From positions 3,223,501 to 3,287,500 of the forward strand of contig NZ_CP141059.1 of NCBI RefSeq assembly GCF_034661235.1: a DNA stretch of 64,000 nucleotides. Reading direction: 5' to 3'. This DNA comes from Nocardioides bizhenqiangii. GTDB lineage: Bacteria; Actinomycetota; Actinomycetes; Propionibacteriales; Nocardioidaceae. The notes beneath the pieces were generated by a model that saw only the letters and a list, made by a program, of their open reading frames with translations, made no database searches and had not been told where the DNA came from. Shown here piece by piece: positions 9,602 through 58,132 of this stretch; position 1 is the stretch's first letter; every line of letters begins with the position of its first letter. The position numbers and the translations under genes were made by a program.

Positions 9602-9745
9602 GGACGGGGTCCCCGTGGATTGACCGGGTTCCCCGTGCTGCCTAGCGTTGCCCGCAGATGGGGCCCCCGGGTCGCCACCGCCGTTCGCAAGGGGAAGGCA
9701 AGCGGCGCGAAGCGAACCGGGGGTCACTTCATTTTTCACTGGCCG

Positions 9746-9836
9746 AGCGTGTCGCAGACGGTGCTTGCCACCCGGGCCATCGCAAGCTCGGCCCAGGGGC
9801 TGCGCACCGTGCGGCTTCGCCGCGGTGCGACACGCT
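9746..9836 (+). repeat. Structured dispersed element, copy A
   Basis: A multi-arm inverted repeat. The outer arms AGCGTGTCGCA (9746-9756) and TGCGACACGCT (9826-9836) pair perfectly over 11 bp. Inside are a 7-bp stem ACGGTGC/GCACCGT (9758-9764 with 9804-9810) enclosing a GGGCC/GGCCC hairpin, and a GCGGC-TTC-GCCGC hairpin (9811-9823). A second copy is at 56589-56681 in the opposite orientation. It lies 69 nt past the stop of the crotonase-fold gene. Confidence 0.8.
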
Positions 9837-9905
9837 GCCGGCCGCGCGGTCGAGGCGGTCAGGGGTTGCGGCTGCATGGCGACTTACGAACCCGGCGCGG
9901 GTGGG

Positions 9906-10706
9906 TCATCGGCCTTCGAACGCCGGCGCCCGCTTCTCCTGCGCCGCCCGGATGCCCTCCTGCAGGTCGGCGGTCGCCAGCGTCACCGGTTGCGCGAGCG
10001 CCTCCCAGTCCAGGCAGGCCTCGATGCTCGCGTGCCCCCGCGCCAGCGCAGTCTTGGTCAGCCGCGCGGCGATCGGCGCGGTCGCGGCGACCTCCGCCGC
10101 CGTCGCGACGACCTGGTCGCGGAAACCGTCGGGCTCCAGCACCCGCGACACCAGGCCGAGGGCGAGCGCCTCGTCGGCGTCGACCAGACGGCCGGTCAGC
10201 AGCAGGTCACGGGCCGCGGCCGGGCCGACCACGTCCGGCAGGAGGTACGTCGTCGCCATGCCCGGGTGCATGCCGAGCCGGAGGAACGGCACTCCCATCC
10301 GGGCCCCGCGAGCGGCGTACCGGATGTCGCACGCCAGCGCCATCGCCAGCCCGGCGCCGATGGCCGGTCCGTTGATCGCGGCGATGGTCGGCACCTCGAG
10401 CCGGCGGATCGACAGCCAAGCGCGGTAGAACGGCAGCATCCGCGACCGGAGCTGGTCGACGGTGGCGTCCGGCTCCCCCGCGATCCAGGACGTGTTGCCG
10501 CCGGCGCAGAACGCGCTGCCCTCCCCGGTCACCACGACCGCCCGTACTTCGGGGTCGTCGGCGAGGTGGTCGACCGCCCGGACCCACGACGCGGTCATCT
10601 CGTCGCTCATCGCGTTGCGCATCTCCGGGAGGTCCAGGACGAGCATCGCGACCCCCGAAATGGGCCGTTCGAGCCGCAGATGGGTCAGCGCACTGATTTC
10701 AGACAT
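9906..10706 (-). CDS. Crotonase-fold protein lacking hydratase glutamates
   Basis: A 266-residue enoyl-CoA hydratase/isomerase-family protein. The oxyanion-hole region is clear: TGEGSAFCAGGNTSW (about 60-74) and NGPAIGAGLAMALACDI (about 112-128). The position of the first catalytic Glu of true hydratases (usually PE-x-x-LG) is Phe in VPFLRLGMHPG. The second (usually MEM-x-LTG) is Asp in ARDLLLTG. It should bind acyl-CoA but may not hydrate enoyl-CoA; isomerase, hydrolase or lyase activity is possible. The ATG at 10706 follows TACCGT by 7 nt, so I prefer it to an in-frame GTG 9 nt upstream. Confidence 0.85.
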   Translation of the reverse strand: MSEISALTHLRLERPISGVAMLVLDLPEMRNAMSDEMTASWVRAVDHLADDPEVRAVVVTGEGSAFCAGGNTSWIAGEPDATVDQLRSRMLPFYRAWLSIRRLEVPTIAAINGPAIGAGLAMALACDIRYAARGARMGVPFLRLGMHPGMATTYLLPDVVGPAAARDLLLTGRLVDADEALALGLVSRVLEPDGFRDQVVATAAEVAATAPIAARLTKTALARGHASIEACLDWEALAQPVTLATADLQEGIRAAQEKRAPAFEGR

Positions 10707-10832
10707 ACCGGGCACGGTACTGCGCCTGGAGTTGAGCGTGCCGTAGCCTCAGAGAGGTTCGCGGTCGCGTGCCGTGAACCCCGGCGGGCTTCCCCATACC
10801 CTCCCGTCGCGACGACCGAAGTGAAGATGAGC

Positions 10833-11987: not shown

Positions 11988-12206
11988 CCTCGCTCGTCGA
12001 TAGCCCGAGCCGCCAGGCGAGGGCGTATCGAGACGCCCGCACGCGAACGCACACCGCGGAACCCCAGGCACCTCACCGCGTCTCGATACGCCCTCGCTCG
12101 TCGATAGCCCGAGCCGCCAGGCGAGGGCGTATCGAGACGCCCGCACGCGAACGCACACCGCGGAACCCCAGGCACCTCACCGCGTCTCGATACGCCCTCG
12201 CTCGTC
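11988..12206. repeat. Two 104-bp tandem repeats, each with a 20-bp perfect inverted repeat
   Basis: The unit starting CCTCGCTCGTCGATAGCCC occurs at 11988 and 12092 with a third start at 12196 that soon diverges. In each unit GCGAGGGCGTATCGAGACGC pairs with GCGTCTCGATACGCCCTCGC across a loop of about 40 nt. The arms belong to the dispersed TCGAGTAGC...GTATCGAGAC family found elsewhere in the window. The repeats sit between convergent genes and could act as a bidirectional terminator. Confidence 0.85.
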
Positions 12207-26587: not shown

Positions 26588-26639
26588 CCGGTGACACGGT
26601 CGCCCGACGGTGGGGACGGCCGAAGCCATGGTTGCGACG

Positions 26640-26678
26640 TCTCGATACGCCCTCGCCTAGCGGCTCGGGCTACTCGAC
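26640..26678 (-). repeat. TCGAGTAGCCCGAGCC dispersed repeat
   Basis: Read on the minus strand this begins GTCGAGTAGCCCGAGCCG and ends in CGTATCGAGA. It matches 32680-32718 (plus strand) with one difference near the middle, and matches the arms of the 104-bp tandem repeats at 11988-12206. Confidence 0.8.
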
Positions 26679-26691
26679 GACCGGCGCGGCC

Positions 26692-32667: not shown

Positions 32668-32679
32668 CCCCTTCGGTGG

Positions 32680-32718
32680 TCGAGTAGCCCGAGCCGCCAG
32701 GCGAGGGCGTATCGAGAC
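32680..32718 (+). repeat. TCGAGTAGCCCGAGCC dispersed repeat
   Basis: The plus-strand form of the repeat seen at 26640-26678, from TCGAGTAGCCCGAGCC to CGTATCGAGAC. It lies in the 125-bp gap between the DUF3107 and PP2C genes. Confidence 0.8.
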
Positions 32719-38359: not shown

Positions 38360-39319
38360 ATGCGTGCTATCTGGAAGGGTGCCGTCTCGTTCGGCCTGGT
38401 CAGCGTGCCGGTGAAGCTCTACTCGGCCACCGAGAGCCACGACGTGTCGTTCCGACAGGTGCACGCCAAGGACGGCGGCCGGATCAAGTACCAACGGGTC
38501 TGCTCGATCGACGGTGAAGAGGTGCCCTACGCCGACATCGCGAAGGGCTACGAGACCGAGGACGGCGAGATGGTGATCCTCACCGAGGACGACCTGGCCG
38601 AGCTGCCGTCAACGTCGTCGCGCGAGATCGCCGTCGAGAAGTTCGTCCCCAGCGACCAGATCGACCCGATGCTGTTCGAGAAGTCCTACTACCTCGAGCC
38701 CGAGTCAAGCGGTGCCAAGCCCTACGCGCTGCTGCGGCAGGCGCTCCTGGATGCCGACCGGATGGCAGTCGTCACGGTCGCGCTGCGTCAGCGCACGACC
38801 ACCGCGGTGCTGCGGGTGCGTGACGACGTGATCGTCATGCAGACGATGATGTGGCCCGACGAGATCCGCAACCCCGACTTCAAGATCGAGACCGGCGAGA
38901 TCAAGGACGCCGAGGTCAAGATGGCGCACATGCTCGTCGAGACCCTCGCCGGTGACTTCGAGCCCGAAGAGTTCGAGGACGACTACGCGGCCGCCGTGCA
39001 GGCCGTCGTGAAGGCGAAGATCGAGGGCGGCGAGATCCGTCGTACTCCCACCTCGACGAAGACGGGCGGCGAGGTCGTCGACCTCCTCGCCGCGCTCCAG
39101 CGCTCGGTCGAGGCCGCCAAGACCTCCCGCGGCGAGGAAGCCGCGGAGGAGAAGCCGACGAAGAAGCCCGCGGCCAAGAAGGCGCCCGCCAAGAAGGACG
39201 CTGCCAAGAAGGACGCTGCCAAGAAGGACGCTGCCAAGAAGGCGCCGGCGAAGAAGGCGCCCGCCAAGAAGGCCGCGAAGAAGCCGGCGAAGAAGGCTGC
39301 TGCCAAGAAGGCCAGCTAG
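38360..39319 (+). CDS. ku: Ku homodimeric DNA-end-binding protein
   Basis: A 319-residue bacterial Ku. It begins MRAIWKGAVSFGLVSVPVKL, has the Ku core to about residue 255, and ends in a 65-residue Lys/Ala-rich tail (KKAPAKKDAAKKD and so on). The tail is coded in part by three exact 15-bp repeats (AAGAAGGACGCTGCC, 39191-39235). Ku binds broken ends and recruits the polymerase and ligase; Lys-rich tails aid DNA sliding and synapsis. TACCCT lies 6 nt before the ATG, so the message is probably leaderless. Only 43 bp separate it from lhgO. Confidence 0.95.
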   Translation: MRAIWKGAVSFGLVSVPVKLYSATESHDVSFRQVHAKDGGRIKYQRVCSIDGEEVPYADIAKGYETEDGEMVILTEDDLAELPSTSSREIAVEKFVPSDQIDPMLFEKSYYLEPESSGAKPYALLRQALLDADRMAVVTVALRQRTTTAVLRVRDDVIVMQTMMWPDEIRNPDFKIETGEIKDAEVKMAHMLVETLAGDFEPEEFEDDYAAAVQAVVKAKIEGGEIRRTPTSTKTGGEVVDLLAALQRSVEAAKTSRGEEAAEEKPTKKPAAKKAPAKKDAAKKDAAKKDAAKKAPAKKAPAKKAAKKPAKKAAAKKAS

Positions 39320-39781
39320 CTCCCTCGTTCTCGAGGAGGTCGCGCTGCGACCGTCTCGAGACCCCTTGGACCTATGAGCCCTTCGTTGCGGTCCGCGGGG
39401 GTTGCGACCGAAATGGCTTTGGACGGGAGCAGGAGGGGCGCTGGTTGCTGGCCGCGTCCGGCTCACGGTGGGTTCGGAAGCGCCGCTGGTCGAGGAGGTC
39501 GCGCTGTGACCGTCTCGCGACTGCTTGGACCTATGAGCCTTGTTTGCGGTCCGCAGGGGTTGCGACCGAAACGCTTGGGAGGGGAGGAGGGGGCTGTTGG
39601 TTGCGCGCCGCGGCCGGCTCACGGTGGTGCGCGAACGCCGCTGGTTGAGGTGCGAGGCGCGCTAGCGCCGAGCCTCGAAACCAAGGCTCCGACCCACCTA
39701 CCATCCACAGGCGCCGAAAGGCGGATCACCTGTCCACAGGGGGGTTCTGAGCGTTTCGTTGTGTCGGGTGGTCGGGGTTGA
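39320..39781. other. 462-bp gap between ku and the HNH gene
   Basis: It holds the tandem repeats described at 39332-39645 and, in the last 80 bp, two DnaA-box-like sites (CCATCCACA at 39701-39709 and CTGTCCACA at 39730-39738). No gene is supported. The HNH promoter should lie in the last part. Confidence 0.7.
39332..39645 (+). repeat. Two imperfect tandem repeats of 155-159 bp
   Basis: Unit 1 (39332-39490) and unit 2 (39491-39645) both start CGAGGAGGTCGCGCTG, both contain TTGGACCTATGAGCC, a GCGGTCCGC and GGTTGCGACCGAAA segment, and both end in a CGCCGCTGGT. The first arm folds as GGTCGC-GCT-GCGACC. A third start at 39646 diverges quickly. They fill the gap between Ku and the HNH gene; I see no coding frame in them. 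Confidence 0.8.
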
Positions 39782-56466: not shown

Positions 56467-56588
56467 GTCCCAATGGTAGGCCGGGAGACGCGCAGAGCCC
56501 CGCACCGGTGGGGGTGCGAGGCTCCGCGCTACCGCCTGCAAGCCGCCAAGCAGCCTCAGGTGGCACCTACATCAACTGCGAGCGCGGC

Positions 56589-56681
56589 AGCGTGTCGCAC
56601 CGCGGCGAAGCCGCACGGTGGGGCGCCCGCGGACCGAGCGAAGCGATGGTCCGTGCGGCGCCGCACCGTCTGCGACACGCT
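56589..56681 (-). repeat. Structured dispersed element, copy B
   Basis: Same outer 11-bp arms as copy A (AGCGTGTCGCA at 56589-56599 and TGCGACACGCT at 56671-56681) and the same GCGGC-TTC-GCCGC hairpin, in opposite orientation. The inner arm is CGGACC...GGTCCG where copy A has GGGCC...GGCCC, with an added GGCGCC/GGCGCC stem. It lies 8 nt after the ahcY stop, between ahcY and mtrA. Confidence 0.8.
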
Positions 56682-56689
56682 CGCGCAAT

Positions 56690-58132
56690 CTAGTAGCGGT
56701 AGTGGTCGGACTTGTACGGACCGGCCACGTCGACGCCGAGGTACTCGGCCTGCTCCTTGGTCAGCTCGGTGAGCTCGACGCCGAGGGCGTCGAGGTGCAG
56801 GCGGGCGACCTCCTCGTCGAGATGCTTGGGCAGGACGTAGACGCCGACCGGGTAGTCGTCGGTCTTCGTGAAGAGCTCGATCTGGGCGAGCACCTGGTTG
56901 GTGAACGAGTTCGACATCACGAACGACGGGTGACCGGTCGCGTTGCCGAGGTTCAGCAGCCGGCCCTCGGACAGCACGATGATCTTCTTGCCATCCTCGA
57001 AGATCCACTGGTGGACCTGCGGCTTGATCTCGTCCTTGACGATGCCCGGGATCCTGGCCAGGCCGGCCATGTCGATCTCGTTGTCGAAGTGACCGATGTT
57101 GCCGACGATCGCCTGGTTCTTCATCTTCTCGAAGTGCTCGATCTTGATGATGTCGAAGTTGCCCGTCGTGGTGATGAAGATGTCGGCGAACTCGACGACG
57201 GACTCGAGGCGCTTGACCTCGTAGCCGTCCATCGCCGCCTGGAGCGCGCAGATCGGGTCGATCTCGGTGACGATCACCCGGGCGCCCTGGCCACGCAGCG
57301 ACTCCGCGGAGCCCTTGCCGACGTCGCCGTAGCCGCAGACGACCGCGACCTTGCCGCCGATCATCACGTCGGTGCCGCGGTTGATGCCGTCGATGAGCGA
57401 GTGGCGGCAGCCGTACTTGTTGTCGAACTTCGACTTGGTGACCGAGTCGTTGACGTTGATGGCCGGGAAGAGGAGCGAGCCCTCCTTGAACCGGTCGTAG
57501 AGACGCAGCACGCCGGTGGTGGTCTCCTCGGTGACGCCCTTGATGCCGTTGGCGATGTTGGTCCAGTGCTGCGGGCGGTTCTCCAGCGAGCGAGCGAGGA
57601 CGCGGAGCACCTCCTTGTACTCCTCGTTGTCGGTCGAGTCCTGACCGGGCACGGCGCCGGCCTTCTCGAACTCGACGCCCTTGTGGAGGAGCATGGTGAT
57701 GTCGCCGCCGTCGTCGAGCAGCATGTTGGGCCCGACCGCGTTGCCGTCGGCGTCGGTGAAGTCGAAGACCTTCTCCGCCTCGTCCCAGTACTCGGCGAGG
57801 GTCTCGCCCTTCCACGCGAACACCGGGGTGCCGGCCGGAGCGTCGACGGTGCCGTCGCGACCGACGACGACCGCCGCGGCAGCGTGGTCCTGGGTGGAGA
57901 AGATGTTGCAGGTGGCCCAGCGCACGTCGGCGCCGAGCGCGGTGAGCGTCTCGATCAGCACCGCGGTCTGGATGGTCATGTGCAGCGAGCCGGCGACGCG
58001 CGCGCCGGCGAGCGGCTTGTCGGCGCCGTAGCGCTCACGCATCGCCATCAGGCCGGGCATCTCGTGCTCGGCGAGCTCGATCTCCTTGCGGCCGTAGTCG
58101 GCCAGGCTCAGGTCAGCAACCTTGTAGTCCAT
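56690..58132 (-). CDS. ahcY: Adenosylhomocysteinase
   Basis: A 480-residue enzyme that splits S-adenosylhomocysteine to adenosine and homocysteine with bound NAD. Substrate-site segments ([53 protein letters not shown]) and the NAD site [17 protein letters not shown] are intact, and it ends in the typical [15 protein letters not shown] precedes the ATG. The 127-bp leader contains a TAGGGT box and two small hairpins; I see no known SAH or SAM riboswitch. Confidence 0.97.

Follow-up and report, generated by a model that had tools for sequence, protein, structure and literature searches.

Short palindromic repeats of several kinds lie between bacterial genes. YPAL (RU-2) of Yersinia is described as a 168-bp intergenic element with internal inverted repeats, transcribed with upstream genes; comparison of its filled and empty sites has given target duplications of 3–26 bp, at targets on or next to dyads (PMC2229807). 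RUP, ERIC and Correia/NEMIS are presented in the same source as non-coding elements of less than 200 bp with terminal inverted repeats, transcribed with genes and in some cases in-frame. REPs are given as palindromes of 20–40 bp with GTAG or CGTC tags, and those of the GTAG type may supply the stop codon themselves (PMC3733652); in E. coli, ribosomes reportedly stall at REPs that lie within 15 nt of a stop codon (PMC12306157). In sites of the attC type it is the folded bottom strand that recombines, with some of its bases extrahelical (PMC2727003).

The window analysed here, 64,000 nucleotides of the Nocardioides bizhenqiangii genome, contains two copies (A and B) of a repeat of ~105 nt that folds into a branched hairpin. 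As far as its description goes (PMC2229807), YPAL is the nearest in behaviour, being an intergenic inverted-repeat element with filled and empty sites, whereas the Nocardioides family differs in its branched fold, its crowding within 12 nt of stop codons, its GNA loops on one strand, its conserved tail and its host, and against the 3–26 bp given for YPAL it shows candidate target repeats at two sites only. With REPs and REPINs, as outlined in PMC3733652 and PMC12306157, the family shares dispersal as palindromes near stop codons, some of them in ORFs, but in place of a short tagged palindrome it has a 105-nt branched structure with GTTGAATTGG or variants on its 5′ side. Small size, lack of coding capacity, inverted ends and in-frame cases are shared with the bacterial MITEs named above; these are described as mostly A+T-rich with TA ends, some having a likely helper IS (PMC2229807), while the Nocardioides repeat is 71–86% G+C and no helper was found. 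Like attC sites it is palindromic, and the bottom strand, which is the working strand in attC, where extrahelical bases give polarity (PMC2727003), is the one that folds better in Nocardioides; unlike them it has no second core box, and no arrays of the attC kind were seen. A search of open-access PMC literature found no description of this Nocardioides repeat family. The family is new to the literature searched, and by fold, strand and placement it is a variant of known repeats.

Structure of the repeat

In copy A the whole structured domain spans 9741..9843 (+). It reads GGCCG, AGCGTGTCGCA (left arm of the outer stem, 9746..9756), arm 2 (9758..9810, with base ACGGTGC/GCACCGT and tip GGGCC/GGCCC at 9774–9778 and 9790–9794), arm 3 (9811..9823, GCGGC-TTC-GCCGC, a C(GAA)G loop on the opposite strand), TGCGACACGCT (right arm, 9826..9836), a GC bulge and CGGCC. 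The stretch GGTCGAGGCGGTCAGGGGTTGCGGCTGCATGGCGAC that follows at 9844..9885 (+) is tail-like, and counts as a tail by our looser rule and not by the stricter one. Copy B is on the minus strand, its structured domain (56582..56686) consisting of GCGCG, the same outer stem, arms 2 and 3, the GC bulge and CGCGC; arm 3 lies at 56602–56614, the arm 2 tip is GGACC/GGTCC (56648–56652 and 56631–56635), and an unpaired conserved tail (..GCAGTTGATGTAGGTGCC..GGCTGCTTGGCGGCTTGC) occupies 56535..56581 (−).

Alignment of copy A (9746–9836, +) with copy B (56589–56681, −) gives 78 identities in 93 columns, with 13 mismatches and 2 gaps. The perfect 11-bp outer stem and the GCGGC-TTC-GCCGC arm that an earlier note had assigned to both copies were confirmed in coordinates and sequence, and the compensatory change it had read in the middle arm (GGGCC/GGCCC in one copy, GGACC/GGTCC in the other) was found at both. 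Past the 2-nt conserved GC bulge the outer stem gains five pairs, GGCCG/CGGCC in copy A and GCGCG/CGCGC in copy B, and this block covaries among copies too. Each strand of each copy, folded as single-stranded DNA, beats 200/200 dinucleotide shuffles (z −3.65 to −5.81).

The gene 5′ of copy B is ahcY (adenosylhomocysteinase; 56690..58132, −; TIGR00936, 626.9 bits against a cut-off of 497.6). Copy B follows it in the sense direction, with its stem 3 nt 3′ of the stop codon (TAG, 56690–56692), and the three separating bases, at 56687..56689 (−), are the ATT of a 5′ box ATTG. Copy A lies ~60–70 nt behind a gene at 9906..10715 (−), which we take to be enoyl-CoA-hydratase-like, and points the opposite way, convergent with it, so that the two copies are oriented oppositely relative to their minus-strand genes as first noted.

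Across the family the repeat is a branched hairpin with two arms on a common stem. A 5′ box of ~10 nt is followed by the outermost five pairs, four of which show double changes, and then, on the right side of the outer stem, by the extrahelical GC (104 of 106 aligned rows). Ten further model pairs flank a T (105 rows), whose facing column holds C in 66 rows and A in 39. Inside the outer stem come arm 2 with its tip hairpin and then arm 3. The repeat thereby has terminal inverted repeats; the outer stem comprises 15 model pairs with 98.2% of cells paired, and it includes near-invariant bases. Many copies carry on their 3′ side a tail of ~45 nt with conserved letters (GTTGA...TGGCGGC), in which RNAalifold, run on 62 tails with a few rows visibly misaligned, found no pairs that would make a further hairpin. 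The rule for calling a tail was not uniform among our analyses, the loosest counting L007 as tailed though no clear tail is visible.

Relatives that we call type II, found at rpoA, rpmJ, infA and sepF, have the same frame with other inner arms (tip GGCAGC-AA-GCTGCC or similar), and mini forms, five of them in the own genome, consist of outer stem and tail only. The inner arms thus change completely among type I, type II and mini forms, and the frame stays constant. Stubs occur in the own genome behind recA- and guaB-like genes, identified by their C-termini, and at ahcY of N. pelophilus (L208) the 5′ box and a tail like that of copy B are kept and the hairpin is nearly all gone. The sepF region of G047 (L359) has a triple tandem array of the stem-and-tail mini form, with units 191 nt apart.

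Distribution, covariation and strand

BLAST of copy A located 25 places in its own genome (a single contig of 4,546,893 bases), of which 24 were aligned, leaving out an identical second tandem copy (L018). The covariance model built from this alignment (111 positions, 31 pairs) found 26 full copies in the own genome (E ≤3e-12), which excludes a chance origin of the likeness between copies A and B, and seven weak matches besides, six of them 45–47 nt long. In the genus, 14 of 118 genomes had a match (E ≤0.001), with 1 to 30 matches each and 139 in all; the weakest carrier (G067) has a single 43-nt match, starting 6 nt behind the rpoA stop codon. Searching the order at E ≤1e-4, with stricter filters by which weak matches are lost, gave 7 of 196 genomes in 1 of 29 genera, all from the own genus, and a two-arm pattern scan of one genome per GTDB species gave 109 stretches, the 80 listed among them being all from Nocardioides. 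As far as searched, the repeat family is special to Nocardioides. Copy A had no match in plasmids and copy B none in phages. In a tree of rpoA DNA (30 genomes, the best matches to one query) all 12 included type I carriers fall on one side of a branch, among 21 rows; on this tree the carrier label takes 8 changes or more, a number as low as that of 91 of 500 shuffles, so that no clustering beyond the shuffles is seen. Gain and loss of the element both seem frequent.

Aligned without structure, the 24 first copies show double changes at 12 of the 31 pairs. The wider alignment has 106 matches; their 92 loci cover part of the 139 genus matches. In this alignment both sides have changed at 22/31 pairs, and the double-change cells number 405 against 119 in shuffles and 19–85 in slid versions, figures to be read with the alignment having been fitted to the model and so leaning towards pairing. 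None of 500 shuffles reaches any of the five covariation measures. Both alignments strongly support the view, taken from two copies in the earlier note, of a conserved fold under changed sequence, and the covariance-model search of own genome and genus that it had proposed yielded 26 full copies, 14/118 genomes, many copies at 3′ ends and covarying pairs; there are further copies, and their pairing is kept. For a dispersed bacterial repeat, we regard this as a very clean case of structure being conserved over sequence.

Non-Watson-Crick pairs, the strand and the loops bear on whether this structure is held at the DNA or the RNA level. Among 3183 pair cells, which come from related copies and are not independent draws, 20 are G-U and 44 A·C, G-U being the rarer, and 36 of the 44 A·C cells are in arm 2, the least certain part of the alignment. 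As a control, 18 distinct tRNAs from the fetched loci had 25 G-U and no A·C in 388 stem cells. ARAGORN itself disfavours A·C pairs, which weakens this control, so that the G-U share, 0.6% in the element against 6.4% in the tRNAs, is the fairer figure. Watson-Crick pairs make up 96.0% in the 74 copies at gene 3′ ends (a class that includes L010 and L120, placed behind tRNA ends by eye), 96.0% in 19 others and 92.0% in 10 tandem followers. We folded 99 of the 106 matches, each singly; the strand opposite to the model strand, which for most copies is opposite to the mRNA, was the more stable in 94/99 copies with DNA parameters and 91/99 with RNA parameters, again among related copies. On that strand the arm 3 loop, C(TNC)G in the model sense, is C(GNA)G in 96 of 106 matches (N being A in 75, C in 15 and G in 6), and the arm 2 loop is C(GNA)G in 79 of 106; as a baseline, the 1014 GC-NNN-GC words of the window include 52 with TNC and 68 with GNA. 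On the opposite strand GCGAAGC stands in arm 3 of copy A and in both arms of copy B. DNA mini-hairpins with a GNA loop closed by G-C pairs are described as extraordinarily stable and resistant to nucleases, GCGAAGC having a melting temperature near 78 C (PMC4686876). The scarcity of G-U, the strand stability and the loop type speak for a DNA hairpin, best formed on the mRNA-complementary strand, and a test that joins wobble pairs, strand and loop type in this way can separate DNA-level from RNA-level constraint.

A known RNA family was rejected, as the window has no Rfam match at gathering score; copy A gave two weak matches (E 0.35 and 0.44) and copy B none.

Placement at gene ends and insertion

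Context was tabulated for 103 copies, three matches of 46–47 nt being left out. Seventy follow a sense stop codon, in a class limited at 24 nt, and in 67 of these the distance from stop to stem core is 0–12 nt, with a mode of 11; the other three are at 15, 17 and 20 nt. Two more stand 10–12 nt behind tRNA-Gly genes predicted by ARAGORN, 10 come second or later in a tandem array, and 21 are classed as other, some lying farther behind a gene, antisense or in an ORF, and two (L010 and L120) behind tRNA ends by eye. Where both neighbours were called (86 copies), 63 copies are behind a sense stop, against a mean of 13.7 and a maximum of 23 in 5000 draws that put each copy at a uniformly random position, in either direction, within its own gap; gene calling used third-position G+C as a simple rule, with a fallback for five of the 70. 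The stops used are TGA (49), TAG (19) and TAA (2). The tail is commoner at gene 3′ ends (57/74) than elsewhere (6/19; Fisher p 0.0005). Twelve of 20 upstream proteins chosen from 65 were named by NCBIfam above cut-off (ahcY, thiL, nusB, nucleotide-sugar dehydrogenase, guaB (IMP dehydrogenase), purH, recA, purF, dapB, rpoA, asd and dtxR), and eight were left without a name; the identities SepF, InfA, RpmJ, RplQ, YggT and ABC transporter at other element sites are our assumptions. With the origin assumed at base 1, 21 of the 26 own copies point with the leading strand, an excess that gene orientation may explain.

The crowding within 12 nt of stops, the sense bias and the tail at gene 3′ ends are not explained by uniform random insertion and would fit a function in place. 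A 3′-UTR RNA element under selection, blocking 3′ exonucleases or Rho or slowing terminating ribosomes and so tuning housekeeping genes, would draw on just these features, on the genes named upstream of it and on the same genes carrying the repeat in several species, and the E. coli REPs near stops reported as ribosome-stalling (PMC12306157) offer a parallel. We nevertheless hold it unlikely, since G-U pairs are scarcer than A·C, the better fold is that of the opposite strand, pairing is equally kept in copies away from gene 3′ ends, two tRNA-Gly genes have copies 10–12 nt behind them, where ribosomes do not terminate, and 104 of the 118 genomes are without any match. An RNA 3′ end is less likely as well: a scan for intrinsic terminators around copy B gave 0 sites and no T run, and copies separate rpoA from the following same-strand gene (presumably rplQ), so that a plain intrinsic terminator was rejected. 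The tight placement after stop codons and tRNA ends may be due to aim or to survival, and after stop codons it may also reflect an RNA role; the link of the tail with gene 3′ ends leaves room for a function in place. The family thus offers a system for testing why bacterial palindromic repeats crowd behind stop codons, be it by targeting, survival or function.

Other palindromes occupy such places as well. A sequence similar to the window repeat TCGAGGAGGTCGCGCTGCGACCGTCTCGAGACC (39331–39380 and 39490–39539) follows the stop codon of rpmJ in both G107 and G096, so that unrelated palindromes use the place behind stop codons. In the rpoA–rplQ gap of relatives without the element (L279/G119, L285/G062, L288/G015 and L289/G124) other hairpins were seen by eye behind the rpoA stop.

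Differences between filled and empty sites were found among relatives in several gaps. Behind rpoA, G105 has a type II copy and its close sister G107 none, the gap reading TTCTGATCTGATCC in G107 and TTCTGA, type II element, TCTGAATCC in G105. G055, G048 and G002 have TTCTGATCC, so that two origins are conceivable for the TCTGA (5 bp) of the G105 site, a target repeat that persists as a footprint in the empty sisters or an older duplication. The rpmJ, infA and sepF gaps likewise differ in being filled or empty. At rpmJ, G048 has GGGCTGA, a type II element and then CTGA/GCTGA, which overlaps the end of the stem; relatives have a single GCTGA here. Candidate target repeats thus stand at two type II sites (5 bp at G105 rpoA; 3–5 bp, overlapping the stem end, at G048 rpmJ), and the type II sites at infA in G069 and G077 have none. 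An excess of flank matches was seen in the tailless type I copies (36 copies; mean 4.44 against 3.67, 0/300), a value inflated by tandem copies, and none in 64 tailed copies; target duplication on flank matches alone was set aside for that inflation. Short dyads, read by eye, adjoin the stop in the empty rpoA and infA gaps.

One insertion is within a coding sequence. The linker of an ABC transporter has a type I core, antisense and in frame, in G014 and G113 (L069 1501–1609 and L098 1401–1509; a peptide of ~36 residues), which is absent in the other 15 of 17 genomes; the comparison took in 17 of 18 loci, G046 lying outside the word pattern and G122 giving no match. Rickettsia RPE elements are likewise reported to be read in frame. 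Tandem arrays of copies are also present.

The same gene end may be occupied in several genomes, type I copies being at ahcY in 3, at sepF in 4 and at rpoA in 4. Such shared addresses were picked by eye and gave 25 pairs of copies, one without background. In 19 of the other 24 the two copies were no more alike than chance pairs, more than two background pairs of the same two genomes being as alike, and mean identity was 0.73 for shared-address pairs against 0.70 for background. The five exceptions (rpoA in G046/G014, a GTPase, the ABC transporter, purH and guaB) look inherited, judging by their sequence likeness. Unlike copies at 19/24 shared addresses point to repeated insertion at the same gene ends or to conversion of copy by copy, and they speak against vertical descent as the whole story.

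Readings of the element

The repeat is probably a mobile palindrome of the REP/MITE-like, non-autonomous kind, acting as a DNA hairpin and settling at the 3′ ends of genes. The earlier note had left the choice between a mobile palindromic element (REP- or MITE-like), an RNA 3′ end and a protein-binding cruciform; the first fits best because of the many copies, the filled and empty sites, the stubs, the tandem copies and the in-frame insertion. Its narrower form, a classical REP, did not hold up, there being no RAYT domain, a length of 105 nt and often a tail of ~45 nt, and the RNA 3′ end is the less likely option.

Against mobility stands that no transposase or recombinase came to light in a domain search for Y1_Tnp and in a reading by eye of left-arm sites. 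REPs go with a Y1 transposase (RAYT). The corresponding domain, Y1_Tnp (PF01797), was found in 0/118 genus genomes, carriers included, in a search whose control was positive in 5/14 named genomes, on which ground mobilisation by a RAYT was rejected. The own genome has 19 exact 12-base left-arm sites outside full copies; 16 of them, read by eye with their neighbourhood, were mini forms, stubs or inside genes, and no larger element or autonomous IS was recognised among them.

As a mobile palindrome, the element would be recognised and copied as a folded single strand of DNA, probably the mRNA-complementary one, stabilised by its better fold and its C(GNA)G loops. Insertion would be the work of an enzyme provided in trans, and the first dozen bases after a gene would be favoured either by this enzyme or through survival of copies there. 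In place, the element would form part of the transcribed 3′ UTR and, as a secondary effect, might slow or protect the mRNA, in the way reported for E. coli REPs. If an enzyme does insert the element at gene ends, it would be a gene-end-targeting inserter that spares coding sequence. A bolder version, which we offer tentatively as a conjecture, is that of a new class of mobile DNA, moving as the folded mRNA-complementary strand with hyperstable C(GNA)G caps, in which a putative non-Y1 enzyme aims at gene ends, the element thereby landing no farther than a dozen bases from a stop codon or tRNA end and rarely doing damage.

The core box of attC sites follows the rule GTTRRRY, and the 5′ box GTTGAAT of some copies is of this form; the second box, GTTGACG, breaks the rule. 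In its position behind stop codons, its more stable bottom strand (94/99, related copies) and its near-invariant extrahelical GC, the repeat does recall an attC-like recombination site, that is, a hairpin behind a gene moved by a tyrosine recombinase as a folded bottom strand, the form in which true attC sites recombine, extrahelical bases included (PMC2727003). This reading is improbable, since no cassette arrays were seen and the copies lie dispersed behind core genes. Supercoils gather at gene ends, and a nucleoid protein or gyrase might bind the repeat there as a cruciform or as duplex DNA. Such a binding site would suit the perfect 11-bp outer palindrome and the near-invariant bases in the outer stem, and a loss of G-U on both strands would fit it too, but we think it very improbable, as the inner arms are wholly different among type I, type II and mini forms and the asymmetric GC bulge and tail give a direction that a plain dyad site does not need.

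The window has repeats of other kinds. Another dispersed palindrome, GTCTCGATACGCCCTCGCC...GAGTAGCCCGAG..., lies at 26639–26683 and 32674–32718, 6 kb apart, with arms 96% complementary, and a related sequence, GGTGGTCGAGTAGCCCGAGCG, was seen in G077 behind copy L131. A 104-bp perfect tandem duplication occupies 11988–12195, and tandem repeats of 15 bp at 39135–39312 encode a lysine/alanine-rich run, which we take to be perhaps a histone-like C-terminus.
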